From the IMG/VR virus record IMGVR_UViG_3300044684_000179, positions 1 to 56,718 of that record: 56,718 bases of DNA; one strand, written 5' to 3'. The DNA is from a virus. Both the position numbers and the translations under genes were made by a program. This document shows, piece after piece, positions 3,344-55,425 of the stretch (positions within the stretch are counted from its first letter, which is position 1; each line of letters starts with the position of its first letter). The notes under the pieces were generated by a model that was not told the origin of the DNA, did not search any database, and saw only the letters and a program-made list of their open reading frames with translations.

Positions 3344-3397
3344 GCATCGGCGCGGCCATATACACTACCGAAACGGTAGTTGAGGCCGCGCCGATGC
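3344..3397. other. Nested inverted repeat enclosing an operator-like palindrome
   Basis: The 14-base arms GCATCGGCGCGGCC (3344-3357) and GGCCGCGCCGATGC (3384-3397) are perfect complements and are followed by GCTTTTGGG. The 26-base loop holds ATATACACTACC, a possible -10 box, and the palindrome ACTACCGAAACGGTAGT. The outer stem could terminate transcripts from the tail tube gene while the loop provides a new start for the chaperone gene. Confidence 0.7.
3365..3379 (+). promoter_or_regulatory. CTACC-N5-GGTAG palindrome (site 1)
   Basis: CTACCGAAACGGTAG, the consensus member of the genome-wide family; here the symmetry extends to 7-base arms (3364-3380). TATACA lies just upstream as a -10-like sequence. 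The site precedes the tail chaperone gene by about 54 bases. Confidence 0.65.
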
Positions 3398-3432
3398 GCT
3401 TTTGGGCCTCGAACAGCGATCAGGAGCAACGA

Positions 3433-3765
3433 ATGGATGAGCAGCAACGCGCGCCGCAGATCGAGGGCGCGAAGGTGAGCATGGGCGGCAAGGATTGGGT
3501 AATCCCGGCTCTGTCTCTCGGGCAGGTGAAGCGCCTGCAAGGCAAGCTCGCGGCGCTGGGCAAGAAGGGCGGCACGGAGCTGCTGCAGGCCACCGACGAT
3601 GTGGTCGAAGTCGTGCACGCGGCGCTCTCGCGCAACTACCCCAACATCAAGCCGGAGGATGTGAGCGACATGCTCGACCTGCGCAACATGGGGCCGGCGG
3701 TACAGGCGGTGATGGGCCAGTCGGGGCTCGTCGAAAAGGGGGAGACGACGGCGGGGAGCCAATAG
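3433..3765 (+). CDS. Tail assembly chaperone, short form (gpG-like)
   Basis: 110 residues, start chosen at the ATG preceded by AGGAGCAACG. The protein is acidic/helical (SLGQVKRLQGKLAALGKKGG; TDDVVEVVHAALSRNYP) as in lambda gpG-type chaperones, which coat the tape measure protein during tail assembly. It lies between tail tube and tape measure genes. Near the 3' end a slippery heptamer allows a -1 shift into an overlapping frame, giving the longer G-T form. Confidence 0.8.
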   Translation: MDEQQRAPQIEGAKVSMGGKDWVIPALSLGQVKRLQGKLAALGKKGGTELLQATDDVVEVVHAALSRNYPNIKPEDVSDMLDLRNMGPAVQAVMGQSGLVEKGETTAGSQ

Positions 3766-4037
3766 ATTGGGATGAGCTGTACGCCCACCTGCTCGCCTGC
3801 TTTCCGGGCTGGACGTGGGAATACATCGACACCCAAATGACGCTGCCCCGCCTGCAAGCGATCACCAAGTACCAGAAGCAGTTCCCGCCAGTTCACGTGC
3901 TCGTTGCGGCCTACATGGGCGCGGGACGCTACCGCGAAGGCTCCGGCTCCGGCGGCATCGAACAGTCGAAGAACAGCGGGCTCGATGAAAACGGCGAAAG
4001 CCTGTTTGACCTGTTCCCGCGCACCCCAGGCACGTAG
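3433..4037 (+). CDS. Tail assembly chaperone, -1 frameshift form (gpGT-like)
   Basis: Reading the gpG frame to the heptamer A-AAG-GGG (3735-3741) and slipping back one base continues as GGDDGGEPIDWDELYAHLLA and ends at TAG 4035-4037. The extension adds about 100 residues, including CFPGWTWEYIDTQMTLPRLQ, the short Trp-rich helical T domain typical of this family (lambda G/GT). The T region has no good start codon of its own, which supports synthesis only by frameshifting. The T domain should recruit tube subunits to the tape measure. Confidence 0.8.
3735..3741 (+). other. Programmed -1 ribosomal frameshift site
   Basis: AAAGGGG in the phase A-AAG-GGG fits the X-XXY-YYZ rule for tandem slippage. 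It is ten codons before the gpG stop, and the -1 frame is open on both sides. G-rich sequence follows (GAGACGACGGCGGGGAGCC), which could slow the ribosome. Confidence 0.75.
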
Positions 4038-4059
4038 CCGGTAACCGAGAGGCACCAGC

Positions 4060-13160: not shown

Positions 13161-13171
13161 GGAGGAACACG

Positions 13172-13345: not shown

Positions 13346-13485
13346 ATTTCACACCCACCAAGGCGTACGGCTCGCGCCCAGGCTGCAGCCGCCACCACGC
13401 AGGATCAGAAGCTCAATGCTGTGACGTGGAGCGCGCCAAGCGCCGCAACCTGATTGTTCAACTTCGCCCATATCGACTACCATAA
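13342..13485 (+). CDS. Possible small overlapping reading frame (47 aa)
   Basis: An ATG overlapping the lipoprotein stop (ATGA) opens a 47-residue frame that ends within palindrome site 2. The product is Cys/His/Arg-rich (GCSRHHAGSEAQCCD) and resembles nothing known. Stop-start overlap is the normal coupling in this genome, which is the only support; it may be a chance frame. Confidence 0.25.
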   Translation: MNFTPTKAYGSRPGCSRHHAGSEAQCCDVERAKRRNLIVQLRPYRLP

Positions 13486-13491
13486 CGGTAG
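13477..13491 (+). promoter_or_regulatory. CTACC-N5-GGTAG palindrome (site 2)
   Basis: CTACCATAACGGTAG, 23 bases before the first gene of the lysis cassette. The same 15 bases occur before the small terminase gene (45215-45229). Confidence 0.6.
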
Positions 13492-13514
13492 CCGACCACA
13501 GCTGAGGTGGTCAC

Positions 13515-15803: not shown

Positions 15804-15818
15804 CTACCGGAAAGGTAG
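15804..15818. promoter_or_regulatory. CTACC-N5-GGTAG palindrome (site 3) beside attP
   Basis: CTACCGGAAAGGTAG within GGCTACCGGAAAGGTAGC. A partial copy (GGTAGCCGGAAAGACTA) starts at 15782. These lie about 60 bases from the attP core and could bind the repressor or act in integration. Confidence 0.5.
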
Positions 15819-15924: not shown

Positions 15925-15931
15925 AAAACAC

Positions 15932-25930: not shown

Positions 25931-25945
25931 CTATCCTTTTGGTAG
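25931..25945 (-). promoter_or_regulatory. Palindrome site 4, fused to the ribosome site of the Sak4-like gene
   Basis: On the minus strand CTACCAAAAGGATAG, immediately followed by GAG of the ribosome site, 9 bases before the ATG. Repressor binding here would overlap the translation start region. Confidence 0.6.
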
Positions 25946-26392: not shown

Positions 26393-26422
26393 ACTATACT
26401 GCCAAAATGGTAGCAAAAGCAA
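26393..26422 (-). promoter_or_regulatory. Promoter with palindrome site 5 in its spacer
   Basis: On the minus strand TTGCTT (26422-26417), an 18-base spacer, then TATAGT (26398-26393). The palindrome CTACCATTTTGGCAG (26413-26399) occupies the spacer directly before the -10 box, so a bound repressor would block RNA polymerase. It drives the 121-residue protein and genes after it. The A-rich stretch beyond it on the plus strand contains CAAAACAGTC and CAAAACAGCC repeats. Confidence 0.6.
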
Positions 26423-30469: not shown

Positions 30470-30859
30470 TCAAGCTGCTGTCGCGATAGCGGCGGCGCGC
30501 TCTGCAAGCCCTTCGGCCTCGCGCGCCAGCTCGCGCACCTCTTCCGGCGTGCCCGCGCGCTCGGCGCGCGCCAGCGCTTCGCGCGCCGAGCGCAACGCAC
30601 TCTCTGCGCGCAGCTTCTGGATTTCCGCGCGCTTCTTCTTCAGCTCGACAGCCGGCAGCATCAGACGGTCCAGGGTGAGCACGTTGCCGCTGGCCGCAAT
30701 GAGGCGATGCGCGAGGTTCGCGCTGGGCCGCTTGCGGTAGTTGACGATGTGTTCGAGGTACTTCACGCCCACCTGCTTGCCGTGTTCGTCTACGCACTTG
30801 GCAGCAAGCGCCTTGACGGCTTCCCTGCCGTACTGCTCGCGGTACTCGAAGAGGTCCAT
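30470..30859 (-). CDS. Cro-like DNA-binding regulator
   Basis: 129 residues, first gene of the leftward early operon. VDEHGKQVGVKYLEHIVNYR then KRPSANLAHRLIAASGNVLT is a helix-turn-helix of the Cro/CI type that selects among related operators, followed by a coiled coil (ELKKKRAEIQKLRAESALRS). Divergent from the repressor gene across the 480-base immunity region, which is the classic lysis-lysogeny arrangement. The DNA target may be the CTACC palindrome. Confidence 0.7.
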   Translation of the reverse strand: MDLFEYREQYGREAVKALAAKCVDEHGKQVGVKYLEHIVNYRKRPSANLAHRLIAASGNVLTLDRLMLPAVELKKKRAEIQKLRAESALRSAREALARAERAGTPEEVRELAREAEGLAERAAAIATAA

Positions 30860-30928: not shown

Positions 30929-30943
30929 ATAACAAAAAGGTAG
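30929..30943 (-). promoter_or_regulatory. Palindrome site 6 at the early leftward promoter
   Basis: Minus strand CTACCTTTTTGTTAT, followed by CG. The left half of the palindrome has changed so that GTTAT/TTATCG could serve as the -10 box, as in site 10 (40560), where TATATT overlaps the site end. Located 70 bases before the Cro-like start codon. Confidence 0.5.
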
Positions 30944-31221: not shown

Positions 31222-31236
31222 CTACCAATTAGGTTG
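31222..31236 (+). promoter_or_regulatory. Degenerate palindrome over the repressor -35 box
   Basis: CTACCAATTAGGTTG: its right half contains the first bases of TTGACA (31234-31239), so binding would affect repressor transcription (autoregulation). Confidence 0.45.
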
Positions 31237-31341: not shown

Positions 31342-31935
31342 ATGCGTACCCAAGCAGTTAAAGAACCGTTCAATGTCGCTCTCGTGAGCGTCAAAAGCCG
31401 TCCCGTCAAACGGAGCCCCGGGAGTGCTGCCTTGGCCTCAGATAAGAGCATCTACGACATTCGATTCGAGAACTTCCAGCTACTGTTCTCGGCCTTCAAG
31501 GTAAAGCTCAAGCGTGACTTCCCCGGCGAGCCGGATCGAGGCATGCTGCGCAAGTTCGCAAGCCGCGCCGGCCTCGACGAGCGCTATGCGAGCCACCTGA
31601 ATGTGCGTCGCAAGACAGTGGGCAGCAACACGGCCCGCTCGATGGAGACGGCGCTCGGCTTGCCGGTGAACTTCATGGATCACCCGCACCCCGAGCTGGG
31701 CGAGGAAGCGGTCATTGCGCTGTTGGAGGGCCGCAAGCCTGAGCTGCGTCAGGTGCCTAGCCAAGGCGCGATGCCGGGGCTTCCCGACCTAAGCACCGAC
31801 AAGGGCCTGGAGACCTTCGTCAAGGCTGCGGTGGACGTGTACCGCTGGAGCCCGGAGCGCGCGCAGGCCGCGATGGTTGCGCTGCTGCTCGAACGCCTGA
31901 GCAAGGGCGGTAAGGATGACGGTAACGGTTCCTGA
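31342..31935 (+). CDS. Phage repressor (HTH)
   Basis: 197 residues; a single rightward gene facing away from the Cro-like gene. LRKFASRAGLDERYASHLNV then RRKTVGSNTARSMETALGLP is a lambda-repressor-like HTH whose second part (ARSMETALGLPVNFMDHPHP) is common in phage repressors. There is an N-terminal extension (FENFQLLFSAFKVKLKRDFP) and a C-terminal helical tail, but no S24 self-cleavage domain, so induction by RecA-driven cleavage is not expected from this protein. The start is uncertain; other in-frame starts lie upstream (TTG 31261). Confidence 0.7.
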   Translation: MRTQAVKEPFNVALVSVKSRPVKRSPGSAALASDKSIYDIRFENFQLLFSAFKVKLKRDFPGEPDRGMLRKFASRAGLDERYASHLNVRRKTVGSNTARSMETALGLPVNFMDHPHPELGEEAVIALLEGRKPELRQVPSQGAMPGLPDLSTDKGLETFVKAAVDVYRWSPERAQAAMVALLLERLSKGGKDDGNGS

Positions 31936-32070
31936 TTGAGTGCAGAACTACCATTGAAGTACCCGTCACCACTGCCTATACTGGTCGCTCGACCTGTGAC
32001 GGGTGACACGCTCTAGCGCCCGTTGCGTGCAGTGGTCCGGCAGGCTCAGTCTTTGAGCCACCCAGCAGCC

Positions 32071-36357: not shown

Positions 36358-36372
36358 CTCCCGTTTTGGTAG
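36358..36372 (-). promoter_or_regulatory. Palindrome site 7, fused to the ribosome site of the VWA-like gene
   Basis: Minus strand CTACCAAAACGGGAG; the last five bases serve as Shine-Dalgarno (GGGAG) six bases before the ATG. Lies in the 35-base gap between two genes of one operon. Confidence 0.55.
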
Positions 36373-37857: not shown

Positions 37858-37872
37858 GTACCAAAAAGGTAG
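37858..37872 (-). promoter_or_regulatory. Palindrome site 8 before the MoxR ATPase gene
   Basis: Minus strand CTACCTTTTTGGTAC, preceded by TTGCAG and followed by ACAATAC (a -10-like sequence). Located 60 bases before the ATG. Confidence 0.55.
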
Positions 37873-38624: not shown

Positions 38625-38639
38625 CTCCCGAAAAGGTAG
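38625..38639 (-). promoter_or_regulatory. Palindrome site 9, fused to a ribosome site
   Basis: Minus strand CTACCTTTTCGGGAG, 6 bases before the ATG of the DUF6011-like gene; GGGAG is the ribosome site. Confidence 0.55.
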
Positions 38640-40556: not shown

Positions 40557-40584
40557 AATATACCAAAAAGGTAGCGGCTACCAA
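40557..40584 (-). promoter_or_regulatory. Leftward promoter with palindrome site 10
   Basis: On the minus strand TTGGTA (40584-40579), 16 bases, then TATATT (40562-40557). The palindrome CTACCTTTTTGGTAT (40574-40560) fills the spacer and overlaps the -10 box, so repressor binding would shut off the 40506-32306 operon. Confidence 0.6.
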
Positions 40585-40600
40585 GTCACTAGGGAAAACA

Positions 40601-43941: not shown

Positions 43942-43943
43942 CC

Positions 43944-44527: not shown

Positions 44528-44556
44528 TTGACACGACGCACCAACAGGCGCACACT
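44528..44556 (+). promoter_or_regulatory. Promoter-like sequence after the Gp49 gene
   Basis: TTGACA (44528-44533), exact -35 consensus, 17 bases, then CACACT (44551-44556). It begins one base after the Gp49-family stop codon. Confidence 0.45.
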
Positions 44557-44562
44557 TCCGAC

Positions 44563-44695: not shown

Positions 44696-44741
44696 ATTGG
44701 CGAACAGCTCGCGCAACTCGAACAGTCACCGGAGAGCATCC

Positions 44742-45014
44742 ATGGCAACCAACCCGTTCGCGCCGAAGAAGACCGCGGCGCAAAAGCAGCAGGCCGCGAC
44801 GCGCACTGGCAGCACGGTCAAGATCGCCGGCAGCAAGAACATGACGAACAAGCAGGTGAAGGCCGCCGGCACCTCGGGCTTCAGCTTCAAGGGCTCTGGC
44901 CGCAGCCAAGCCTACATCGCTGGCGCGAAGGCGGCACTCAAGGGTGGTGCAACTGCCGCCCAGGCCCACCGCGCCGGCTCGGCGGCCGACAGCGCGGCTT
45001 ACACCGGCGCCTGA
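44742..45014 (+). CDS. Small basic protein (90 aa)
   Basis: MATNPFAPKKTAAQKQQAAT, then AGSKNMTNKQVKAAGTSGFS and AYIAGAKAALKGGATAAQAH: low complexity, strongly basic. GGAGAGC precedes the ATG. Possibly DNA-binding or packaged; unknown. Confidence 0.65.
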   Translation: MATNPFAPKKTAAQKQQAATRTGSTVKIAGSKNMTNKQVKAAGTSGFSFKGSGRSQAYIAGAKAALKGGATAAQAHRAGSAADSAAYTGA

Positions 45015-45199
45015 TGCCGCAACAGCCCAAGCAGCCCTCGCGCATTCAACGCATGAGGGCTGCCGGCTACACGCCGCGGGAAGCGCGCCTCGTGTGCGAC
45101 GCCTACGGCAAGCGTTTCGCACGGCAGGTGCTGCCAGCCCACAACTGCACGCCTGACGTGCTGCCGGAGCGCGATACCCCGCCGCCTCGTCTCGACTGA
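45014..45199 (+). CDS. Small basic protein (61 aa)
   Basis: MPQQPKQPSRIQRMRAAGYT then PREARLVCDAYGKRFARQVL. ATG overlaps the upstream stop. The MRAAGYTPREARLV segment looks like a helix-turn-helix. Last gene before the terminase genes. Confidence 0.6.
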   Translation: MPQQPKQPSRIQRMRAAGYTPREARLVCDAYGKRFARQVLPAHNCTPDVLPERDTPPPRLD

Positions 45200-45214
45200 T
45201 CGGCCTCGTGTCGG

Positions 45215-45229
45215 CTACCATAACGGTAG
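45215..45229 (+). promoter_or_regulatory. CTACC-N5-GGTAG palindrome (site 11) before terminase
   Basis: CTACCATAACGGTAG (arms extend to GCTACC/GGTAGC), 41 bases before the small terminase ATG; identical to site 2 before the lysis cassette. Confidence 0.65.
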
Positions 45230-45270
45230 CGATACCAGATTTTCCGATCTAGAAAAGAGGCAGCACCGAA

Positions 45271-45744
45271 ATGGCAGAGCAGGCACAGCCCAAGCCGAAG
45301 CGCAAGCGCGCGCCGGCCAAGAAGGTGGCAGGCGACAAGCCGAAGAAGCGAATGGGCCGCCCGCCATTCGAGCCTACCGACGAGCAGCGCGCGCACGTGC
45401 AGCGGCTGAAGCTGGTGGACACGCCGAACGAGCACATCGCCTCGATCCTCGGGATCGACGAGAAGACGCTCGTCAAGCACTTCGGCTACGAGCTGGACCT
45501 GTCGAAGCATGACCTGCTCGCCAACGTCGGCGCCACGCTCTACCAGAAGGCTCTCGGCGGCGACACGGCCGCAATGATCTTCTACCTGAAGACGAAGGGC
45601 CGCTGGGCTGAGACCGTCAAGCAGGAAATCACTGGCGCCAACGGTGAACCACTCGCGCCGGCCCTGCCGCCTCTGCTCATGGTGGGCTTCGTCGATGGAA
45701 GCGCAGACGACAGCGCCGATCAAGCCGCGTCGAACGCAGGCTGA
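45271..45744 (+). CDS. terS: Terminase small subunit
   Basis: 157 residues. A basic N-terminus (KPKRKRAPAKKVAGDKPKKR) is followed by a homeodomain-like HTH (QRLKLVDTPNEHIASILGID, EKTLVKHFGYEL) that should recognise the packaging site and by an oligomerisation region (ATLYQKALGGDTAAMIFYLK). Directly upstream of and overlapping the large subunit gene. Confidence 0.85.
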   Translation: MAEQAQPKPKRKRAPAKKVAGDKPKKRMGRPPFEPTDEQRAHVQRLKLVDTPNEHIASILGIDEKTLVKHFGYELDLSKHDLLANVGATLYQKALGGDTAAMIFYLKTKGRWAETVKQEITGANGEPLAPALPPLLMVGFVDGSADDSADQAASNAG

Positions 45745-47212
45745 GAAGCGGCTCACCGCCGCCCAGCGTCGCGAGCAGGCCGCGGCGCGGGCAGCCGCAT
45801 TGGCCGCCGAGCGCGCGATGGCCGGGCGCAAGCGCACCGATGTGATGTTCCCGGCGAAGCTGCGTTTCCTGTTCCGCGCTCGCCGCTACAAGGTGGCGCA
45901 CGGTGGCCGTGGCGGCGCGAAGTCATGGGGCTTCGCTCGCGCGCTCATCCTACGCGCCTACAACGGAACCACGCGCGTGCTTTGCGCACGCGAGTTCCAG
46001 AACAGCATCACCGAGTCGGTGCACAAGCTGCTGGTCAACCAGATCGACTCGATGGGCCTCACCGCTCACTTCGATGTCACGCAGACCAGCATCAAGTGCA
46101 AGCACAACGGCTCGGAGTTCATCTTCTCTGGCATCCGCAACAACGTCACCAAGATCAAGTCGATGGAAGGCATCGACGTGTGCTGGGTGGAGGAAGCGGA
46201 GAAGGTATCGAACGAGTCGTGGGAAGTGCTCATCCCCACGATCCGCAAGCCGGGCAGCGAGATTTGGGTGTCGTTCAACCCGAACCTCGAAACCGACCCG
46301 ACCTACATCCGCTTCGTCGTCAATCAGCCCGACGACTGCGAAGTGGTGCAAATCAACTGGCGCGACAACCCGTGGTTCCCGGATGAGCTGCGCCGGGAGA
46401 TGGAATACCTCAAGCGGGTGGACTTCGACGCCTACCTGCACGTGTGGGAAGGCCACTGCCGCAACAACAGCGATGCGCAGATTCTGCGCGGCAAGTGCTT
46501 TGTCGAGAGCTTCGAGCCGAACACCGGCGTGGATGAAGCTGGCAAGCCGCTGGAGTGGAACGGGCCGTACTTCGGCGCGGATTGGGGCTTCGCGCAAGAC
46601 CCGACGACGCTGGTGAAGTGCTGGATTCAGGGTCGCACGCTCTACATCGAGCACGAGGCTTACGGCATCGGCGTGGACATCGACGCCACGCCGGCCATGT
46701 TCCAGCGCGTGCCGGGCGCCGACGAGCGCGCCATCATCCGCGCCGACAGCGCGCGACCCGAGACGATCAGCTACATGCAGCGGCACGGCTTCGGCGCCAT
46801 GCGTGGCGTCGAGAAGTGGGCCGGCAGCGTCGAAGACGGCATCGCGTTCCTGCGCAGCTTCGAGCGCATCGTCATCCACCCGCGCTGCGAGCACACCGCG
46901 CTCGAAGGCAAGCTGTGGTCCTACAAGGTGGACAAGCTCACCAAGGACGTGAAGGCCGAGGTGATGGATGCGCACAACCACTGCTGGGACGCGGTTCGCT
47001 ACGCGCTGCAGCCGCTCATTCGCCGCGGCTCGAACATGGGCCTCGTCGATTTCATTCGCGCGCAGGTCGTGGGTCAGCGCCAGCAACAGCCAGCGGCAGG
47101 ACAGGGGGCAACGACTGTTGCTGAGGTGAAGAGCCCTGGCACCGCGCCGCACGAGATTTCGAAGCCCTGGACCAAGGCCGCGCTCGACCGGGCGCGCAAC
47201 CAGAACCGATAG
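45695..47212 (+). CDS. terL: Terminase large subunit
   Basis: 505 residues, start at ATG 45695 inside the end of terS (50-base overlap). ATPase motifs: Walker A-like VAHGGRGGAKSWGFA (about 67-81), Walker B VCWVEEAEKV; the RNase H-like nuclease domain begins with GADWGFAQDPTTLVKCW and contains RADSARPETISYM and the acid in DAHNHCWDAVRY. PBSX/Terminase_3 family. It translocates DNA into the prohead and cuts it. Confidence 0.95.
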   Translation: MEAQTTAPIKPRRTQAEKRLTAAQRREQAAARAAALAAERAMAGRKRTDVMFPAKLRFLFRARRYKVAHGGRGGAKSWGFARALILRAYNGTTRVLCAREFQNSITESVHKLLVNQIDSMGLTAHFDVTQTSIKCKHNGSEFIFSGIRNNVTKIKSMEGIDVCWVEEAEKVSNESWEVLIPTIRKPGSEIWVSFNPNLETDPTYIRFVVNQPDDCEVVQINWRDNPWFPDELRREMEYLKRVDFDAYLHVWEGHCRNNSDAQILRGKCFVESFEPNTGVDEAGKPLEWNGPYFGADWGFAQDPTTLVKCWIQGRTLYIEHEAYGIGVDIDATPAMFQRVPGADERAIIRADSARPETISYMQRHGFGAMRGVEKWAGSVEDGIAFLRSFERIVIHPRCEHTALEGKLWSYKVDKLTKDVKAEVMDAHNHCWDAVRYALQPLIRRGSNMGLVDFIRAQVVGQRQQQPAAGQGATTVAEVKSPGTAPHEISKPWTKAALDRARNQNR

Positions 47213-47221
47213 GAGGCCAGC

Positions 47222-47491
47222 ATGGGTCAGTACGTCATCACCATCCACGGCACCGGCAAGCACCACAACTTCAAGCTGCGTGCCGGCGATCCCGCAAAGG
47301 GCGAGCGCGCCGACTCGCACAACTACCTCGTGCAGCGCGAGGATGGCAGGGGCTACGAGCGCACGTCGCCCGGCGATGCCGACGAGCTGGCGCGCGAAAT
47401 GGTCGAGCTGCTGCGCAAGCACGGCCACGTCGTCACGCACGCCGCCTTCACGGTGGGCGGCAGCGAATCGCTCATGGGCGGCACGCTGTAA
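47222..47491 (+). CDS. Hypothetical protein between terminase and portal (89 aa)
   Basis: AGGAGGCC precedes the ATG. MGQYVITIHGTGKHHNFKLR then ELAREMVELLRKHGHVVTHA, an alpha/beta fold. A common small gene in such phages; unknown role. Confidence 0.65.
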   Translation: MGQYVITIHGTGKHHNFKLRAGDPAKGERADSHNYLVQREDGRGYERTSPGDADELAREMVELLRKHGHVVTHAAFTVGGSESLMGGTL

Positions 47492-47524
47492 GCCGCCATC
47501 ACAACGAACACCGAAAGCTACGAC

Positions 47525-49969
47525 ATGCCCGATCCTCAAGGCGGCAGCAAGACGGCCATCGACCAAGCCATGATTCAGCACGCGCTGAAGAACGTCAGCT
47601 ACAGCGCCAACATCGACCCAACGCAGGCGTGGATGGGGCCGCTGCGCCCGATTCAGCCGGTGGTGCCTCCGCAACTGGCGGCCAGCGTCATCGCGCGGGC
47701 GCTCGACTACCCGGCCGGCTACAACCTGCGCCAGCGCCCGCGTGCCGGCGAGAACGTCACGTTCGAGCAGATGCGCAACCTCGCCGAGTCGTGCGACGTG
47801 CTGCGACTGGTGATCGAGACGCGCAAGGATCAAATGGAGCTGCAGTCGTTCTCCGTCGTGCCTATGGACGAGCACAGCCGGCCCGACGCGCGCTGCGAAG
47901 AGGTGGAGGCGTTCTTCAAGCTGCCCGACGGCGAGAACACATACGACCAGTGGCAGCGCATGGTGCTCGAAGACCTGTTCGTGCTTGACGCGGTTGCGAT
48001 CTACCCGTGGCTCGCGCAGGACGGCTCGCCATTCCGCTTCGAGCTGATCGCGCCCGAGACCATCAAGCGCGTGATCGACGAGCGTGGACGCACGCCGCTG
48101 CCGCCTGACCCCGCTTACCAGCAGGTGCTCAAGGGTGTGCCGGCCGTGAACTACACCGCCGACGAGCTGATCTATCGCGTGCGCAACAAGCGCTCGCACC
48201 GCATCTACGGCTACTCGCCGGTCGAGCAGATCATCATCACGGTGAACACGGCCATCCGCCGCGCCGTGCATCAGCTCCAGTTCTACACCGAGGGCTCGAC
48301 GCCTGACCTTCTGTTCTCGTGCCCGCCGGACTGGAACATGGATCAGGTGCGCGACTTCAACGACTGGTGGCAGTCGATGTTGCAGGGCAACACGGCTGCG
48401 CGCCGCGCCGGCCTGTTCATCCCCGCCGGCGTGGCGCCGATCAACACGAAGGACGGCGCGCTCACCGACAAGTTCGACGAGTGGCTGGCGCGCATCGTGT
48501 GCTACGCCTTCAGCGTGTCGCCTACGCCTTTTGTGGCGCAGGTGAATCGGGCCACCGCAGAGAGCGCGCAGGAGGCCGCGCTGCTCGAAGGTCTCGCGCC
48601 GATCATGAAGTGGATGAAGGGGCTGCTCGACTTCATCATCTGGAAGTATTTCGGCTACACCGACCTGCAGGTGAAGTGGGACGAGAACCGCAGCATCGAT
48701 CCGGCGGTGCAGTCGGCCACCGACGACCGCGACATCCGCAACGGCTCGAAGACCATCAACGAGGTGCGCCAGACGCGCGGCCTCGATCCGGTGGACGGCG
48801 GCGACAAGCCGCTCATCATCCTGCCCAACGGCCCGGTCGAGCTGGCGACCGCGGTGAAGGTGAACACGCAGAACCTGCTGAACCCGCCGCCACCGCCGAC
48901 GCCGCCCGGCGCGCCGCCTGGTCACGCCGAGCCGCAGCCAGGCGGCCAACAGCCGCAGCAACAGCCGGCGGGCAAGGGCGCACAGCAGCAACAGCCGCAA
49001 GGCCAGACCACGCAGAAGATCGCGAAGGGTGCTGCCCGCCCAAAAGCGCAACCCGCCGTTTCGCCTATTGACCGGGATCGCCCGGCCATCGCGGCGCTGC
49101 GGCGGGTGATGACCAAGACAGTGGCGAAGCGCTTGAGCGGCAGCATCAAGGCCAACGTGATCGCGAGCGCTGTGAAGGCGTATAGCCACCATGCGCAGGG
49201 CAAGCCCCAGGCTGTCGGCAAGACCGTGCGCGCGCCACGCCTGCGGTGCGCCGCCGGCTGCCGGCACGAAGGCTGCGGCGCGAGCCTCATTGCCAAGGCT
49301 GATCCGCCCGACTTCGACACCAGCGGCGACAAACGCATCGCGCAGGCCATCCTTGACCAGCTCGATCTCGGCGCCTTCGACGTGCTCACGCCTGAAGTGC
49401 AGGCCGTCATCGAGCAGGTGCTCAAGGATGCTGGCAGCGAGGCGCTGCAACAGGTCGGCATCGACGACCAGGGCATCACCGACGTGGTGAACCAGAACGC
49501 GGTGGACTACGCAAAGGATCGTGCCGCCGAGCTGGTGAGCCGCATCAGCGATAGCACGCGCGAGATGCTGCGCTCGGACATCGCCCAGGCGCTCGACGAG
49601 GGCTGGAGCAATGACGACCTCGCCGACGCGCTGGCCGACAACTACGGCTTCAGCGACGACCGCGCCGAAACCATCGCGCGCACCGAAACCGCCTACGCCG
49701 ATGTGCAAGGCAACCTCGACGCCTACCGCGAAAGCGGCGTGGTCAGCCTCAAGCAGTGGATCACCGGCGACGGCTGTTGCGACGCCTGCGACGAACTGGA
49801 TGGCGTCACGATTGGGCTCGACGACACCTTCAACGCCGACGGCGACGAGATCGACGGCCCACCATACCACCCGAACTGCCGCTGCGACGTGATCCCGGTG
49901 CTTGCCGACGAGAGCGACGCGGACGCAGCCGACCGGCTCGCCGGCTCGGATGACGACAGCGAAGATTGA
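47525..49969 (+). CDS. Portal protein fused to a MuF-type head morphogenesis domain
   Basis: 814 residues. Residues of about 1-430 are a portal (FEQMRNLAESCDVLRLVIET; AVNYTADELIYRVRNKRSHR; IYGYSPVEQIIITVNTAIRR; FSVSPTPFVAQVNRATAESA). A Pro/Gln-rich linker (PPPPPTPPGAPPGH) and a Cys/His patch (LRCAAGCRHEGCGASL) lead to a C-terminal MuF/SPP1 gp7-like domain (AETIARTETAYADVQGNLDA; WITGDGCCDACDELDG; PPYHPNCRCDVIPV). The two are separate genes in most phages. The portal forms the packaging ring. Confidence 0.9.
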   Translation: MPDPQGGSKTAIDQAMIQHALKNVSYSANIDPTQAWMGPLRPIQPVVPPQLAASVIARALDYPAGYNLRQRPRAGENVTFEQMRNLAESCDVLRLVIETRKDQMELQSFSVVPMDEHSRPDARCEEVEAFFKLPDGENTYDQWQRMVLEDLFVLDAVAIYPWLAQDGSPFRFELIAPETIKRVIDERGRTPLPPDPAYQQVLKGVPAVNYTADELIYRVRNKRSHRIYGYSPVEQIIITVNTAIRRAVHQLQFYTEGSTPDLLFSCPPDWNMDQVRDFNDWWQSMLQGNTAARRAGLFIPAGVAPINTKDGALTDKFDEWLARIVCYAFSVSPTPFVAQVNRATAESAQEAALLEGLAPIMKWMKGLLDFIIWKYFGYTDLQVKWDENRSIDPAVQSATDDRDIRNGSKTINEVRQTRGLDPVDGGDKPLIILPNGPVELATAVKVNTQNLLNPPPPPTPPGAPPGHAEPQPGGQQPQQQPAGKGAQQQQPQGQTTQKIAKGAARPKAQPAVSPIDRDRPAIAALRRVMTKTVAKRLSGSIKANVIASAVKAYSHHAQGKPQAVGKTVRAPRLRCAAGCRHEGCGASLIAKADPPDFDTSGDKRIAQAILDQLDLGAFDVLTPEVQAVIEQVLKDAGSEALQQVGIDDQGITDVVNQNAVDYAKDRAAELVSRISDSTREMLRSDIAQALDEGWSNDDLADALADNYGFSDDRAETIARTETAYADVQGNLDAYRESGVVSLKQWITGDGCCDACDELDGVTIGLDDTFNADGDEIDGPPYHPNCRCDVIPVLADESDADAADRLAGSDDDSED

Positions 49970-49994
49970 CCGCCAACCCTGAAAGGAAAGGATC

Positions 49995-50294
49995 ATGGGA
50001 ATGCACCGTGTCATGCCACCGGCCAACGGCCAAGCGAGCACCACCAGCAAGGTGAACGGCCGCACCTACACCTGCGCCGCGGGCGCCACCATCGACGTGC
50101 CCGACTTCGACGGCGACCAGCTCGAAGCGAACGGCTGGCTCAAGGCCGCAGCCGGCGGCGTGGGTTCGACCGCGCAACGCCCGAGCTACGGCGCAGCCGA
50201 CAAGGGCAAGCAGTTCCACGACTCCACGCTCGGCAAGAACATCGTGTGGGACGGCAAGAACTGGCGCGACCCGACGAACGGCTCGGCGATTTAG
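49995..50294 (+). CDS. Small structural protein sharing a domain with the SGNH protein
   Basis: 99 residues; AAAGGAAAGG before the ATG. KVNGRTYTCAAGATIDVPDF then DGDQLEANGWLKA is the same module as the N-terminus of the following 662-residue protein (ANGRTYTCAQGSSISVPDF). This module may attach proteins to the virion. The rest (STLGKNIVWDGKNWRDPTNG) resembles a tail/decoration tip fragment. Confidence 0.7.
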   Translation: MGMHRVMPPANGQASTTSKVNGRTYTCAAGATIDVPDFDGDQLEANGWLKAAAGGVGSTAQRPSYGAADKGKQFHDSTLGKNIVWDGKNWRDPTNGSAI

Positions 50295-50330
50295 GCTGCA
50301 CGCCGAAGCGCCAAGCCACGCCTGCAGCAA

Positions 50331-50345
50331 CTACCGAAAGGGTAG
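50331..50345 (+). promoter_or_regulatory. CTACC-N5-GGTAG palindrome (site 12)
   Basis: CTACCGAAAGGGTAG with arms extended to CAACTACC/GGTAGTTG (50328-50348), 38 bases before the SGNH hydrolase gene. Confidence 0.6.
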
Positions 50346-50383
50346 TTGTGCGGGCACAATCACATGCAAGGGACTGCTGACCG

Positions 50384-52372
50384 ATGACGAACATTCGACT
50401 CACCCCGCCATCCGGCATCACCTCGATGCAGGCCAACGGCCGCACCTACACCTGCGCGCAGGGCTCTTCCATCTCCGTGCCGGACTTCGATGCGGCCGTG
50501 CTGATGTCCAACGGCTGGACTGTCGTGAACGCATCGCTGCTCACGGTCCTCGCGGCCAACGTGCCATCGACGGCCTACCAGGGCGCGGGCGTGGTGCTGC
50601 AGGACGAGAACGGCGTTGTGTACTCGTGGAGCGGTTCGGTGTACGAGCCGGCCTCCATCAGTGCGAACAACACGCCGCCGATGCTGCCTGTTGGCAGCCG
50701 CCGCCTGCCCATTGCGCTGGCGAACGTGCTGCAGCAGCCCGGCTACGTGAACCGGGCCGGCGTGGCGGGCGACAGCATCAGCTCGGGCATCACCGCCGCA
50801 CCGGTGCACGCGAACCACGCGGGCATCACAGAAAGCCTTGTCGCGTCCAACGGCGGTCTGAACGGCGCTCTGTGCTCGACCTGCGTGCTGTTCACTGGCG
50901 CTGTGCGCACGTGCGCAACTGGCAACGGCACGCTCACCTACAACCCGACGACGAACACGCTCACCTGGGCAGCCAATGGCGACACCGCCGGCACGCCTGT
51001 GGTGTGCGACCGCACGAAGCCGGTGAAGCTGTCCTCGGGCACGCCGGGCAATGAAATCTACGTGACGATTCGGCCGAAGCTCGGCACGGCCAACAAGCTG
51101 CCGGGTGTTCTTACCACCGACACGAGCATCAACGTCGGCGCCGTCGGGAACGGCTACTTCCCCGTGCTGCACTCGGTTGCCGCCTGCTATGCGGACTGGC
51201 TGCGCGCAGACCTGCATGGCAGCTACGAGATCGTGGGCAAATGGGCCGAGAGCGGCAACTGCACGAACAACATCGTTGACCAGCTCCCCGAGATCGTGGC
51301 ATCCGGCATCGATGAGCTGTTCCTCATGGTTGGCACGAACGACCCAGGCAACGGCCTCACGACAGCGCAGACGCAGGCGAATTTCCAGACGATCTTCCAG
51401 ACGCTGAACAACGCCGGCATCAAGGTCTCGGTCATCTCGATCACTCCGCGCGGCGATGCGGCGAACCAGTCCTACATCCTCGGCATGAACCGCTGGCTGT
51501 CAGAGTATTGCCAAGACCCGACGAACCCGCGCCACTTGCTGCAGTACATCGACCTGTACCAGCAGCTTTGCAGCTCGACGGTTGCCTATGCGAGCGGCGC
51601 GCCTTACGACATCAACACCGCGATGTTCCGGGCCGACGATCTGCACCCGGGTGACCTCGGCGGCATGACCATTTCTGCCGGCATCGCGGCAGTGAAGAAG
51701 GACAAAACGTTGCCGGTGCGCTATGAGCATCCGAACCAGCTCTACGACGCAACGAACAACCCCTACGGCAATCTCATCACCAACCCGCAGATGCTGGTGG
51801 GCAGCACGCGCCCCGGCACGGTGGCGGGCGGCAAGACGCCAGGGACCGGCACCATCAACGGTACGGTGCCTGACGACTACACGGTCTGGAACCAGTCAGG
51901 AAGCAACGTCGTTACGGTCAGCTCGCCGTCGCGCTCGTCCATCGACGCGAGCGACACGACGCCGGGCAACTGGTGTCAGCTCGCGTTCTCGACGACCTTC
52001 GGTGGCGTCACCACGCTGTACATCCCGTTCACGCTCGCGAACATCGCGCTGCTGGCGCTCTACGAGTTCGGCTTCGACTTCGCGGTGGACAACCCGAGCC
52101 TGCTCACACGCTTCGACGCGCAGCTCATGTTCAACGGCGCCGACCGCATCTCGTGCGGCCAATACAACGGGGAGAACTGGAGCGTCGGCGCCGCGCCCAC
52201 CACGTTCACCCGCCGTTTCTGGAAGTCACCGCGCTGGATGACGCCTTCGAGCTGGGCCTGGGCAGGCCAAGGCGGCAACCCGACACCCACGCAGTTGCGC
52301 GTGAACATCAACCCGAGCGCGGCGTGCAACGTCTACCTCGGCAACTTCTACTTCCGTCGCATTCGGAGCTAA
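50384..52372 (+). CDS. Virion-associated SGNH/GDSL esterase-like protein
   Basis: 662 residues. An N-terminal attachment module (residues 17-45) shared with the 99-residue protein is followed by an SGNH hydrolase: GDSISSG (S131 nucleophile), MVGTNDPGNG (about 315-324, N319) and DDLHPGD (D418, H421). About 185 residues lie between blocks I and III, an insertion. The C-terminal 200 residues (STTFGGVTTLYIPFTLANIA; VDNPSLLTRFDAQLMFNGAD) look like a jelly-roll carbohydrate-binding domain. It probably deacetylates host surface polysaccharide. Confidence 0.8.
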   Translation: MTNIRLTPPSGITSMQANGRTYTCAQGSSISVPDFDAAVLMSNGWTVVNASLLTVLAANVPSTAYQGAGVVLQDENGVVYSWSGSVYEPASISANNTPPMLPVGSRRLPIALANVLQQPGYVNRAGVAGDSISSGITAAPVHANHAGITESLVASNGGLNGALCSTCVLFTGAVRTCATGNGTLTYNPTTNTLTWAANGDTAGTPVVCDRTKPVKLSSGTPGNEIYVTIRPKLGTANKLPGVLTTDTSINVGAVGNGYFPVLHSVAACYADWLRADLHGSYEIVGKWAESGNCTNNIVDQLPEIVASGIDELFLMVGTNDPGNGLTTAQTQANFQTIFQTLNNAGIKVSVISITPRGDAANQSYILGMNRWLSEYCQDPTNPRHLLQYIDLYQQLCSSTVAYASGAPYDINTAMFRADDLHPGDLGGMTISAGIAAVKKDKTLPVRYEHPNQLYDATNNPYGNLITNPQMLVGSTRPGTVAGGKTPGTGTINGTVPDDYTVWNQSGSNVVTVSSPSRSSIDASDTTPGNWCQLAFSTTFGGVTTLYIPFTLANIALLALYEFGFDFAVDNPSLLTRFDAQLMFNGADRISCGQYNGENWSVGAAPTTFTRRFWKSPRWMTPSSWAWAGQGGNPTPTQLRVNINPSAACNVYLGNFYFRRIRS

Positions 52373-52375
52373 CCC

Positions 52376-53578
52376 ATGATCCCAGCCACCCCGAAGATCG
52401 CTGCGCTCGACTACACCCGCGACCTGTCGCCTGCGCGACAGGCGTTGCTCGCGCGCTTCCCCTTCGTCATCTTCGATTTCGTGCTTGCGCAGCTCGGCCC
52501 GAGCGGCATCGGTGCCACGCTCACGTTCCTGCAGGCGCTGCGCAATGCCGGCGCAAAGGTCGCGCAGTACGTTGTGCTCAACGAATGGCCCGACCCGCTC
52601 ACCGCCACGAGCGAGCAGTACAGCTACTGGCAACAGCTCTGCGCGCAGAGCTGGTGGGTGCAGCAGGCAGGCGGCGGCAAGACCGCAAGCACCACGCAAG
52701 CCGGCTCGAACCTCATCAACGTCACGCGCGAGACGATGCCGGACAGCCAGGGGCGCCACGTGCCGCAAGCCAAGGCGGCCTGGGACTTCGCGACCTACCT
52801 GCAGCAGCTCTTCGGCCACATCGACATGCTGTTCGTGGACAACTCGATGTTCCAGCCGCGCGCCGCGGCGGATTGGAATTGCGACGGGGTGAACGAGACG
52901 CCGCAGCAGGCCGCTGCGGCGTTCCGCACGGGCTTGGCCGACTACTACACGGCGCTGCAGGCGCTCGTGCCCGGCGTCGGAATCATCGGCAACAGCGACT
53001 GCGACACCAGCACGGCCGGCGGCTATGGCTGCAGCCTCAGCAAGCCCGAGCTGGTGGGCATGGCGCAGGGCGGCTTTTTGGAGGCGGTCGTCGGCAAGAG
53101 CTACAGCCTGGAGGGCTTCGCTGGCGTGGGCGCCGTGCTCAAGTACATCCGCAGCGCCATCAACTCGACGCGCGGCCAGCTCGCGCTCGTCGGCGCCTAC
53201 GCTGATCTGACCTCGCCGGCCGGCATTCAGACCGCGCGCTACGGCCTGTGTATCAGCATGCTCGAAGACGGCTACTACGTGCTCAACGCCGCCACCGGCG
53301 GCGCGCCGCAGTGGCTCGATGAATACGACCAGCGCATCGGCGACCCCGCGGACACGCCGCAGAGCGCCCCGGCCGCCGGATTCAACGGCCTGTTCGCGCG
53401 GCGCTACACGAACGGCTTGGTGCTGGTGAACCCAACGACGGCGGCCATCACGGTGGACCTGTCGGCGCAGAACCTGCGTCGCTTCTCGGGATCGCAAGAC
53501 CCGGTGACGAACAACGGCCAGCGCGCAACCCAGGTGAGCGTGCCGGCGAAGGATGGCCTGCTGCTGCTGGCATGCTAA
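52376..53578 (+). CDS. Putative TIM-barrel glycosidase (GHL15-like)
   Basis: 400 residues. Alternating strands and helices with KIAALDYTRDLSPARQALLA, FVIFDFVLAQLG, AQYVVLNEWPD, GHIDMLFVDNSMFQ and GLFARRYTNGLVLVNPTTAA follow the pattern of the putative glycoside hydrolase GHL15 group, in which FVDN carries a possible catalytic Asp. It begins three bases after the SGNH gene, so the two are coupled and may digest the same polysaccharide. Substrate unknown. Confidence 0.65.
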   Translation: MIPATPKIAALDYTRDLSPARQALLARFPFVIFDFVLAQLGPSGIGATLTFLQALRNAGAKVAQYVVLNEWPDPLTATSEQYSYWQQLCAQSWWVQQAGGGKTASTTQAGSNLINVTRETMPDSQGRHVPQAKAAWDFATYLQQLFGHIDMLFVDNSMFQPRAAADWNCDGVNETPQQAAAAFRTGLADYYTALQALVPGVGIIGNSDCDTSTAGGYGCSLSKPELVGMAQGGFLEAVVGKSYSLEGFAGVGAVLKYIRSAINSTRGQLALVGAYADLTSPAGIQTARYGLCISMLEDGYYVLNAATGGAPQWLDEYDQRIGDPADTPQSAPAAGFNGLFARRYTNGLVLVNPTTAAITVDLSAQNLRRFSGSQDPVTNNGQRATQVSVPAKDGLLLLAC

Positions 53579-53600
53579 TGCCCACCCACTGACTCGGTGC

Positions 53601-53628
53601 GGCAACGGTGGCATCGCCCACTGTTGCC
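53601..53628 (+). other. Hairpin between glycosidase and protease genes
   Basis: GGCAACGGTGG (53601-53611) pairs with CCACTGTTGCC (53618-53628), one G-T pair, loop CATCGC. No T-run; may slow transcription ahead of the next promoter-like sequence (TTATACACT, 53642-53650). Confidence 0.5.
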
Positions 53629-53656
53629 AACAGCCGAATGGTTATACACTCCGCAA

Positions 53657-53671
53657 CTACCAAAAGGATAG
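53657..53671 (+). promoter_or_regulatory. Palindrome site 13, fused to the protease ribosome site
   Basis: CTACCAAAAGGATAG, two bases before ATG 53674; AAAGGA serves as ribosome site. TTATACACT is upstream as a -10-like sequence. Confidence 0.6.
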
Positions 53672-53673
53672 CG

Positions 53674-55302
53674 ATGAGCAAGAACGCCGATCCTCGCTTC
53701 TACGCCGAGATTTCCAAGGTCGATGATGAGCAGCGCATGGTCTACGGCTATGCCTCGACCGTGAGCGCCGACAGCCAAGGCGAGCGCGTCACCAAGGCCG
53801 CGATGGAAGGCGCCATCACCGACTACATGAAGTTCGCCAACATCCGCGAGATGCACCAGCCGTCCGCGGTTGGCATCGCGAAGTCGGCCGAGGTGGACGA
53901 CAAGGGCATCTACATCGCCGCCAAGGTGGTCGATGACGACGCCTGGAAGAAGGTGAAGGAGGGCGTCTACAAGGGCTTCAGCATCGGCGGCAAGTCGATC
54001 AACAAGGTCGATGGCGTCATCAGCGCTATGCGCCTGACCGAAATCAGTCTCGTGGATCGGCCCGCCAATCCCGAGTGCGTCATCGAAGTGTGGAAAGGCG
54101 AAGGCATCGACATGAGCAAGAGCATGCAGGAAGCGCAGCGCGCAGCCGTTCTCGAACTGGCCGATCTGCTGGACAAGGGCGCAGTCGATCCCGCGGCGCT
54201 GCTGGCGTTCGCCAAGGGCGACAAGGGCGCTGCGCTCGCCGCGGCTGCGCCTGCGCCGGTTCCTGCTGGTCAAGCTGTGCCCGCAACGACTACCGAAACG
54301 GTGGCTGTCGAAGTGGCCGCAAAGAACGCCGCCGAAGCGCCAGCTCCTGCGCCCGCAACGGCAGCAGCCGCCGAGCCTCCTGTCGCTGCGCCTGCCGCTG
54401 AGCCTGCTCCGGCGGCTCCGGCGACTGCGGGAGAAGTCGGCAAAGCGGCGCCGACCGGCGACATCAAGAAGGGCATGGCGACCACGGCCCAGCTTGCGCT
54501 GCTGCTCAAGCAGCTCGCCTACCTGACGCAGAACCAGAACGACGAGGCATCGCGCGAGAAGGACAACTCAGCGGTGCCCGGCATGCTGCACGACCTGCTG
54601 GTGCAAGGCGGCAAGGCGCTGGTGGCGATGGCGACCGAAGAGGCTGCCGAGCTGGCGTCGAATGTGGACCCGGGCAACCAAGCCGAGGATCAGACCTACG
54701 TGGCGCCGGCCAGCAGCGTTGCACCATTCGGCTACAGCGACAAGCCGGGCGACATCCTCAAGGCTGTCACCGGCTTGCAGGACACCATCGCCAAGGCGGG
54801 CGCGAAGTTCTCGGCTGACACGAAGGACAAGCTCGCGAAGGCCCACGCCGCGGTGAAGCAGGCCAGCGACCACCTCGACAGCCTGAACTACAAGGGCGGC
54901 GACGACGACTGCAACGATGGCGCCGGCATGGGCAAGGCCGCCACGTCCGAGGCCATCTCGAAGATGGAGAGCCAGCTCGCCGAAGTGACGAAGCAGCGCG
55001 ACGAAGAGATCGCCAAGCGCCAAGCCACCGAGGCGCAACTGTCCGACCTGGGCAAGCAGGTCGAAGACCTGAAGAAGCGCTTCGACAAGCTGCCGGCGGC
55101 GGCGCCGCGCGGTCGCCTGCTCGCCATCGCCAAGGGTGACGACGTAGGCGGCGAGCCGCAAGCGGCGGCACCGGCCTCCGCGCAGCCCGAGCCCATCCGC
55201 AAGGCGGACGGCTCCATCGACCACGAAGCCACCGCGGTGGCGGTGCTCAAGAGCGTGCACGCCACCGGCGGCCGCCCGCTCACCGGCATGCCGCTCCGCT
55301 AA
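53674..55302 (+). CDS. Prohead protease (XkdF-like) fused to scaffold
   Basis: 542 residues; start at the ATG directly after the palindrome. Residues 1-150 are an XkdF-like serine protease: YGYASTVSADSQGERVTKAA, REMHQPSAVGIAKSAEVDDK (H61), VKEGVYKGFSIGGKSI (S103) and LTEISLVDRPANPEC. The remainder is an Ala/Pro-rich linker, a helical region and a coiled coil (MESQLAEVTKQRDEEIAKRQ) typical of scaffold. An internal Met (GIDMSKSMQ, about 147) could allow a separate scaffold product. It cleaves the scaffold during head maturation. Confidence 0.85.
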   Translation: MSKNADPRFYAEISKVDDEQRMVYGYASTVSADSQGERVTKAAMEGAITDYMKFANIREMHQPSAVGIAKSAEVDDKGIYIAAKVVDDDAWKKVKEGVYKGFSIGGKSINKVDGVISAMRLTEISLVDRPANPECVIEVWKGEGIDMSKSMQEAQRAAVLELADLLDKGAVDPAALLAFAKGDKGAALAAAAPAPVPAGQAVPATTTETVAVEVAAKNAAEAPAPAPATAAAAEPPVAAPAAEPAPAAPATAGEVGKAAPTGDIKKGMATTAQLALLLKQLAYLTQNQNDEASREKDNSAVPGMLHDLLVQGGKALVAMATEEAAELASNVDPGNQAEDQTYVAPASSVAPFGYSDKPGDILKAVTGLQDTIAKAGAKFSADTKDKLAKAHAAVKQASDHLDSLNYKGGDDDCNDGAGMGKAATSEAISKMESQLAEVTKQRDEEIAKRQATEAQLSDLGKQVEDLKKRFDKLPAAAPRGRLLAIAKGDDVGGEPQAAAPASAQPEPIRKADGSIDHEATAVAVLKSVHATGGRPLTGMPLR

Positions 55303-55333
55303 ACAGACCTCGACCCCAACCGCAACGCAGCCC

Positions 55334-55347
55334 GGCGCTTCGGCGCC
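55334..55347 (+). other. TTCG tetraloop hairpin before the capsid gene
   Basis: GGCGC-TTCG-GCGCC, a stable tetraloop hairpin 30 bases after the protease stop; it could protect the capsid transcript end or attenuate read-through. Confidence 0.4.
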
Positions 55348-55410
55348 GCCCTCAACCTCAAACCAGACCCCGGCGTCGTGCGCGCATTCCTGAAGTCGCG
55401 CCCTCGTCAA

Positions 55411-55425
55411 CTACCAAAACGGTAG
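55411..55425 (+). promoter_or_regulatory. CTACC-N5-GGTAG palindrome (site 14) before capsid
   Basis: CTACCAAAACGGTAG, 24 bases before the capsid ATG, close to its ribosome site (CGGAGAACC). Confidence 0.6.

Follow-up and report, generated by a model that had tools for sequence, protein, structure and literature searches.

A dispersed 15-bp palindrome as the probable operator of a helix-turn-helix repressor in an IMG/VR phage genome

The palindrome CTACC-N5-GGTAG is dispersed over the 56,718-base IMG/VR virus contig IMGVR_UViG_3300044684_000179 (hereafter, the window, that is, the whole analyzed stretch at its full length), and its closest described counterparts are sites repeated over the genomes of several other phages. 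The mycobacteriophages of Cluster A (L5, Bxb1, TipsytheTRex) possess many genome-wide repressor sites, the stoperators, which are located in promoters and short intergenic gaps and the letters of which vary among relatives along with the repressors (PMC6550527, PMC9283540). In phage P1, 22 operators of the repressor C1 are dispersed on a temperate phage genome and are served by this one repressor (PMC8546580); the consensus of these operators is asymmetric and 17 base pairs (bp) long, and C1 is aided by Lxc and opposed by Coi (PMC8546580, PMC8198154). The SPBRE of phage SPbeta, a 15-bp repeated element found in silico at several intergenic places, was later shown to be the site of the master repressor MrpR, a protein with a tyrosine-recombinase fold for which peaks in promoter regions are described (PMC10516654). 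Finally, the Cluster O mycobacteriophages contain more than 30 copies of the 17-bp palindrome TGTTCGG-N3-CCGAACA, many of them intergenic, with invariant halves and an AAA/TTT-rich centre; the function of these palindromes is given as unknown, about one-third of them lie in coding regions, and the phages are not obviously temperate (PMC4351075).

The window carries about 17 copies of its palindrome, mostly in front of genes. Quite probably, judging from the sequence, the palindrome serves as operator for a lysogeny repressor that the phage itself encodes, the most likely candidate being the product of g52. As with the Cluster A stoperators, the sites are many and fall in promoters and short gaps (14 of the 16 matches with at most one mismatch are intergenic, and overlap with promoter-like elements is seen at 31222 and 40560), but the stoperator is a 13-bp asymmetric site that is bound by a monomer and oriented with transcription, whereas the window site is a 15-bp palindrome with six exact copies and a partial polarity. 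The Cluster A repressor combines a helix-turn-helix (HTH) with a stoperator domain; the HTH part of g52 best matches Rep of Salmonella phage SPC32H, and the rest is modelled at low confidence. Dispersal of sites on one temperate phage under one repressor would be shared with P1, the operator of which is, unlike the window site, asymmetric; likewise, SPBRE is a 15-bp repeat at several intergenic places of one phage, but the confident part of the g52 model is an HTH fold, unlike MrpR. Because the site is palindromic and the repressor appears to be of another type, we do not file this system under L5, P1 or SPBRE; in form, the Cluster O palindromes are the most alike. Searches of the open PMC literature, by words and not by the letters of the motif, showed no report of stoperators in a proteobacterial phage among the top results listed. 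The two candidate readers of the palindrome are:

31342..31935, plus strand: g52, 197 amino acids, probable immunity repressor (HTH), candidate reader
30470..30859, minus strand: g51, 129 amino acids, Cro-like position, possible second reader

With at most one mismatch, the palindrome occurs 16 times in the window against a shuffle mean of 0.5 (60 shuffles, maximum 2), and with no mismatch six times against 0.0 (60 shuffles); at up to two mismatches, there are 34 matches against 9.84 +/- 2.90 (100 dinucleotide shuffles, largest 18), and in-gene two-mismatch matches are not counted as sites, about 10 being expected by chance. Among all 5-mer palindromes with spacers of 0-12, CTACC with a spacer of 5 ranks first in the window. 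Although intergenic DNA makes up only 7.5% of the record, nearly all sites are found there, and 12 of the 16 lie no more than 80 bp upstream of a called start (the genes come from our own simple caller, so that distances and intergenic status carry its errors). The distance to the called start is 24-105 bp for 13 of 16 sites and 2-6 bp for the other three (not counting 54290 and 31948); this spacing and the palindromic form differ from those of the Start-Associated Sequences of Cluster K, which are non-palindromic and typically located 3-7 bp before starts. The motif search with its shuffled control (16 against 0.5) thus bears out the genome-wide distribution proposed in a sequence-only reading of this DNA, and all 14 coordinates given there for full or near-full copies are correct (six exact, seven with one mismatch and one, 30929, with two). 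Among the three copies listed there as weaker, 31222 and 54290 hold, with one mismatch each, and 15718 (TCTCCTTTTCGGTAA) is dropped because it has four mismatches and, by eye, sits at the expected minus-strand ribosome-binding site of the gene starting at 15713. The sites are:

3365..3379, plus strand: site, exact; late gene g07 (3433) follows after 53 bp
13477..13491, plus strand: site, exact; 56 bp before g15 (13548)
15804..15818, minus strand: site, exact; 90 bp before g20 (15713, minus strand), between TTGCGC and TTTAGT (promoter by eye)
25931..25945, minus strand: site, 1 mismatch; upstream of the AAA/Sak4-like g39 by 45 bp (called start, 25885) or 9 bp (alternative start, 25921)
26399..26413, minus strand: site, 1 mismatch; g40 (26348, minus strand) follows after 50 bp, with the -10-like TATAGT directly after the site (by eye)
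30929..30943, minus strand: site, 2 mismatches; g51 (30859, minus strand) follows after 69 bp
31222..31236, plus strand: site, 1 mismatch; overlaps TTGACA (31234), the -35 element of the promoter-like TTGACA-17-CATATT before g52
31948..31962, plus strand: weak site, 2 mismatches, uncertain; overlaps TTGAAG-17-TATACT before g53 (32071)
36358..36372, minus strand: site, 1 mismatch; 5 bp before the g65 start, downstream half GGGAG (by eye)
37858..37872, minus strand: site, 1 mismatch; 60 bp before the AAA ATPase gene g66, with TTGCAG immediately in front of the site (by eye)
38625..38639, minus strand: site, 1 mismatch; 6 bp before the g67 start, downstream half GGGAG (by eye)
40560..40574, minus strand: site, 1 mismatch; in the spacer and -10 of TTGGTA-16-TATATT (40584-40557), 53 bp before g71
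40578..40592, minus strand: site, 2 mismatches; tandem partner of 40560, 18 bp away, overlaps the -35
45215..45229, plus strand: site, exact; 41 bp before the terminase small subunit gene g82
50331..50345, plus strand: site, exact; 38 bp before g87
53657..53671, plus strand: site, 1 mismatch; the start of g89, probably encoding the prohead protease, follows after 2 bp
54290..54304, plus strand: intragenic site, 1 mismatch; inside g89
55411..55425, plus strand: site, exact; g90, the putative major capsid gene, follows after 24 bp

The sixteenth one-mismatch match, at 41219, lies inside a gene and is uncertain, as is the two-mismatch match at 37966. Alignment of 40 sites of the window and of two related records, G031 and G048 (hand-picked, with two-mismatch sites included and each site turned to make the centre A-rich), gives the consensus R-CTACC-RAAAN-GGTAG-Y, so that the symmetry partly extends to 17 bp.

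Examination of the surroundings of the sites suggests two kinds of placement. In the promoter scan, sites overlap promoter-like elements before g52 (31222) and at 40560; because the former overlaps the -35, g52 is likely to be autoregulated. The sequence-only reading had a site filling the spacer next to the -10 box in two promoters, which is upheld by the scan at 40557, whereas at the other, the TATAGT directly after site 26399 is discerned by eye only and the promoter falls below the scan threshold. Promoter-like arrangements at 15804, 26399 and 37858 are likewise seen by eye, all three below the threshold. The remaining sites at gene starts lie inside operons (3365, 13477, 25931, 36358, 38625, 45215, 50331, 53657 and 55411), and the scan for sigma-70-like promoters found none in 41200-56718, where 1.1 are expected by chance. 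The GGGAG halves at 36358 and 38625, 5-6 bp before ATG, can double as Shine-Dalgarno sequences (by eye), as can the AGGAG halves of the G048 sites 4063 and 5470, 5 and 7 bp before the start. Tandem pairs with an 18-bp period are found at 40560/40578 in the window and at 7216/7234 and 11801/11819 in G048, with TATAAT at the junction of each G048 pair (by eye).

In imperfect copies, the half-site facing the oncoming RNA polymerase is usually the intact one. Among the one-mismatch intergenic sites of five genomes, the mismatch is in the downstream half, relative to transcription, in 17 of 19, and among the two-mismatch sites, the mismatches are downstream in 16, upstream in 6 and in both halves in 3 (the counts cover sites outside called genes with a start within 130 bp); three of the upstream cases are second members of tandem pairs. 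What is not accounted for by overlap with other signals may reflect a stronger half facing RNA polymerase.

We infer binding by g52, binding as a dimer, roadblock action and a role in lysogeny. A g52 dimer would read the two half-sites. At the early leftward promoters and at the promoter of g52 itself, where the site occupies or adjoins the -35/-10 region, the bound repressor would block initiation. In the late rightward operon and before some internal early genes, where sites stand just before start codons and no promoter is recognisable, it would most likely stop or attenuate RNA polymerase leaking in from elsewhere, and through such roadblocks the prophage would be silenced at the level of individual genes. 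The Cro-like g51 is a possible competitor for these sites. Elongation roadblocks are reported for the bacterial controller protein C.Kpn2I (PMC6237814) and for LacI at O3 (PMC3711431).

The relatives of the window phage carry the motif mostly together with g52 (hereafter, sites in relatives are matches with at most one mismatch, unless indicated otherwise). The closest relative by gene content, G031 (IMGVR_UViG_3300041585_000069, a partial record of 30,959 bases; coordinates refer to the reverse complement), has the late region in common, with most matches at 40-80% protein identity, and contains 8 sites (shuffle mean 0.27), 5 of them intergenic; it came through g89 and was not among the 80 loci listed in the terminase large subunit (TerL) scan. 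None of the 30 records searched, which were taken from the TerL matches listed, contains the exact motif. A capsid alignment search found 75 viral loci; among L098 and 74 capsid loci, at least three sites are present only in L098 and L366, both from G031, and in L297, from G048, with 0-2 in the others. When g52 was searched in 40 of the capsid-locus records, the sole match was in the same G048 (53% over residues 32-129, E-value 3e-31), which contains 6 sites (shuffles 0.28), 4 of them intergenic, including one upstream of the gene that comes after the portal gene; two-mismatch sites precede its g51 homologue (873) and two more genes.

Several sites are kept at equivalent places. The terminase small subunit gene has a site upstream in the window (at 41 bp), G031 (40 bp) and G048 (43 bp), while the flanks differ (by eye). 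At the g06 place, G031 and G048 have a site, with about nine bases in front in common, and the window has none. The site before the g51 position recurs in the window (30929), in G048 (873) and in G034 (8316, a gene at the same place).

Further g52 homologues are encoded in G032 (44%), G034/G035 (41%) and G007 (37%). G034 contains 8 sites (shuffles 0.20), 4 of them intergenic, with centres that are C+G-rich rather than A-rich, and G032 contains 4 (shuffles 0.13), 3 of them intergenic. In none of the 11 related records without a g52 match (G050, G055, G086, G083, G054, G001, G004, G006, G033, G042 and G041) is there more than one site; together they hold 5, of which none is intergenic. A second search, with a g52 alignment against viral_contigs, gave 25 loci of 118 pattern matches. 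Among these, L391 has 12 sites (10 intergenic, shuffles 0.17), most of them without a called start nearby, L392 has 7 (5 intergenic, shuffles 0.00), L400 has 5 (4 intergenic, shuffles 0.17), L401 and L402 (G034/G035) have 5 each, L399 (G032) has 4, and L390 (part of G048) has 1. Among the loci of the most distant g52 homologues, L405-L414, nine have no site and one has a single site; the six that were aligned all have a different HTH helix. The loci are not all independent: G034/G035 (= L401/L402) form one phage group, and L391/L392, L393-L395 and L403/L404 probably do so too. When upstream DNA alone is ranked, the CTACC palindrome leads both in the window and in G048, and it takes second place in G032 and third place in G034; it is first in the whole-locus ranking of L098 and L366 and second among spacer-5 palindromes in L400, many of these rankings being headed by low-complexity and C+G-rich words. 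A scan of viral_contigs for the exact site, with near-copies counted, gave 80 stretches among the matches listed, with one match each, which we take for chance. As a query on its own, g52 retrieved nothing related from viral_contigs, genome_contigs, phages or plasmids, nor did g51 from viral_contigs. The stoperator-like interpretation of the sequence-only reading stands in part. One phage-coded regulator most likely reads the copies: the motif mostly travels with g52, with G007 and L396 as exceptions, and its letters are altered in other g52 branches.

In these other branches, the spacing and placement seem to persist while the code changes. The loci L393-L398, L403 and L404 have no standard site. 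In L403 and L404, CTATC-N5-GATAG is the top spacer-5 palindrome, with 4 and 6 copies against 0.03 expected, 4 of 4 and 5 of 6 of which are intergenic. The pattern CTACC-N5-GAGAG occurs 7 times in L393, 7 in L395, 8 in L397 and 8 in L398 (shuffles 0.57, 0.35, 0.70 and 0.65), compared to 5 in L391, the own sites of which are near this pattern, and 1 each in the controls L405 and L409; this code is less certain than the CTATC one, the pattern having been chosen after viewing the data, and one L397 shuffle reached 7.

The g52 product appears to be an XRE/lambda-repressor-fold HTH protein without a detectable LexA-type peptidase domain. It has weak PHROG matches to transcriptional regulators (phrog_5736, phrog_12107), those of its homologues being stronger (E-values down to 1.5e-11), and no Pfam or NCBIfam match up to an E-value of 0.1, so that no S24 peptidase is detected. 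The best structural match of the model, for residues 33-123, is SPC32H Rep (VIA-align Z 10.1, root-mean-square deviation 2.2 over 76 residues, 26% identity; the next row has Z 6.9). The antirepressor of Gifsy phages is LexA-controlled; a LexA box of the form CTGT-N8-ACAG was not found in the window, where other LexA boxes and unknown antirepressors are possible. SPC32H Rep can assemble into dimers as well as tetramers, and an antirepressor binds to it (PMC9638917, PMC9986798). With its HTH match and no S24 peptidase detected, g52 resembles the non-cleavable repressors of the SPC32H Rep/Gifsy type, HTH proteins inactivated by an antirepressor rather than by autocleavage; unlike in the window, a genome-wide operator set is not mentioned in the excerpts on these systems (PMC9638917, PMC9986798, PMC3121763).

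Several observations weigh against this assignment of the sites to g52. Binding by g52 is predicted from sequence, and the late sites could belong to undetected internal promoters. The g52 model is modest (mean predicted local distance difference test score, pLDDT, 67, and about 90 in the HTH region, from a two-row alignment), and in the Foldseek search, no match reaches an E-value of 0.001, the best being SPC32H Rep at 2.9e-3. G031 has sites and no g52 match, being a partial contig; conversely, G007, with a g52 homologue of the same helix type, has no site at one mismatch or fewer, although with up to two mismatches its count of 19 (7 intergenic) is raised over the 6.7 of the shuffles (maximum 12). 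L396 encodes a g52 homologue and has no standard site and only 2 of the GAGAG type (shuffles 0.45), and the branches with altered codes lack the standard site altogether. Since many records are partial, a missing g52 is weak evidence. The CTACC palindrome is not among the best six in the upstream DNA of G031, nor among the 12 best in G007, G001, G004 and G006, nor among the best three with spacer 5 in L399, L401 and L390. Both exceptions to the polarity are in G032, where 2 of the 3 one-mismatch sites are reversed, and the polarity itself may come partly from overlap with the -10 box and the Shine-Dalgarno sequence. In G048 and G032, both g51 and g52 co-occur with the motif, so that these genomes do not separate the two candidates.

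Among the alternatives, it is improbable that the palindrome is a phage-specific promoter or activator element bound by a phage activator and serving early and late units. Sites do precede genes in both kinds of unit, and the lack of sigma-70-like promoters over the late region makes a special promoter conceivable. This alternative, which had been raised along with the stoperator one, is nevertheless weakened by the sites 2-8 bp before start codons (36358, 38625 and 53657 in the window, 10016 and 17772 in G031, 4063 and 5470 in G048), since this distance leaves no room for a -10 box and a transcription start. In addition, site 40560 covers the spacer and -10, a repressor place, although MerR-type activators bind there as well, and, by eye, the late sites have no shared second box beside them.

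There is also a small chance that g51, the Cro-like protein, is the main reader in place of g52 and that the sites tune lytic rather than lysogenic expression. Lambda CI and Cro read the same operators, and since the pattern Y..H...RK is common to g51 and g52, the two may do so as well; furthermore, a site lies upstream of g51 itself, and g51 homologues are present in the motif-bearing G048 and G032. G034 and G035, however, have the motif and no detectable g51 match (a small gene at the same place shows 20% identity), and in the wider scan the motif follows the helix type of g52, with the exceptions given above.

That the palindromes are partition (parS-like), packaging or host-protein binding sites is very unlikely. 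Palindromes spread over the genome of phage N15 reportedly serve partition; in the window, by contrast, the integrase and an attachment-like tRNA end point to integration, ParA/ParB families are absent among the 47 of the 89 called genes that were scanned against family libraries, and the motif is associated with a phage repressor gene. An RNA hairpin or translation-start element acting in mRNA, in the manner of the Start-Associated Sequences, to which the proximity of sites to start codons and the Shine-Dalgarno letters at 36358 and 38625 might point, is rejected as the least probable, because all five RNA pairs are possible in only 12 of 37 sites (hand-picked, two-mismatch sites included), no site shows a double compensatory change, and some sites are located on promoter elements, which places them ahead of the expected transcript.

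The window phage, which carries an integrase and the repressor-like gene g52, is probably temperate. The contig has a 127-base direct repeat common to both ends (1-127 and 56592-56718, inside the putative capsid gene) and thus closes to a circle. The minus strand encodes replication and recombination genes and the plus strand packaging, head, tail and lysis genes; the integrase gene is located at 17632-18708 on the minus strand (phrog_1). A stretch of 49 bases, 15878-15926, perfectly matches a segment of a short phage record and resembles the 3' end of a tRNA; it would be the attP adjoining the integrase, although ARAGORN found no whole tRNA. The temperate lifestyle is read from the integrase and this attP-like tRNA end. 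Directly after the latter, at 15932-15965, there is a strong terminator-like hairpin of 13 pairs, listed on both strands. Similarities lean toward phages of Pseudomonadota and relatives, namely, 73-78% to Pseudomonas phages in the SSB region, 42% to Brevundimonas phages in the capsid and 53-54% to Nitratiruptor phages in the terminase, which makes a proteobacterial host plausible; the capsid alignment had no match in genome_contigs and hence yields no named host.

We put at slightly less than an even chance the broader proposition that a widespread family of temperate phages silences its whole genome with palindromic roadblock operators and a short HTH repressor, with about 5-20 co-evolving 15-bp sites per genome. 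In such a family, sites would stand between late structural genes, even fused with ribosome-binding sites, and immunity of the stoperator type would be exerted through ordinary dimeric operators; since the branches use different codes (CTACC, CTATC and CTACC/GAGAG), their immunities would probably differ. If this is correct, the silencing of an entire genome from scattered repressor sites extends beyond mycobacteriophages, P1 and SPbeta and exists also with a plain lambda-fold repressor and palindromic operators; the question is then raised whether a symmetric dimer within a late operon can form a roadblock, perhaps one that works in a single direction. Repressor branches whose half-sites have changed would be material for the HTH recognition code and for predicting cross-immunity from sequence, and the window case suggests a way to seek the reader of the Cluster O palindromes.

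Some smaller features accompany the sites. Between g06 and g07 (3344-3397), a long inverted repeat (GCATCGGCGCGGCC ... GGCCGCGCCGATGC), possibly a terminator, holds site 3365 in its loop (by eye). The gene g15 starts a group that contains a spanin-like gene (14559). At 50001-52372, g86 and g87 open alike (NGRTYTCA..., VPDFD), as if a gene start had been duplicated, with a site before g87 only. In-gene sites in g89 are present also in G031 (13546) and G048; they were set aside as proof of roadblocks, since a TT..V peptide common to the three genomes means that coding may explain them. The same gene has, in the window, G031 and G048, an in-frame internal ATG (54475) in a KKGM or AKGM context after a linker, possibly an internal start for a scaffold protein.

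A second repeat, CTCGCGAA-NN-TTCGCGAG, together with 10-bp tandem runs, has 10 matches with at most three mismatches in the window, against 0.94 by chance. Eight of the 10 fall in the following clusters, one of which is inside the replication-initiation-like gene g50:

30094-30121, 40624-40641, 40784-40811 and 43736-43773: second-repeat clusters

The word TCGCGA is not raised in G031, G048, G034 or G032, and the repeat could represent origin iterons or the site of another regulator. In L333, which belongs to a capsid relative in which g52 had no match, a gene is preceded by four palindromes of the ATATACG-N6-CGTATAA kind at 13062-13162, spaced 27 bp apart and perhaps that phage's own operator array.

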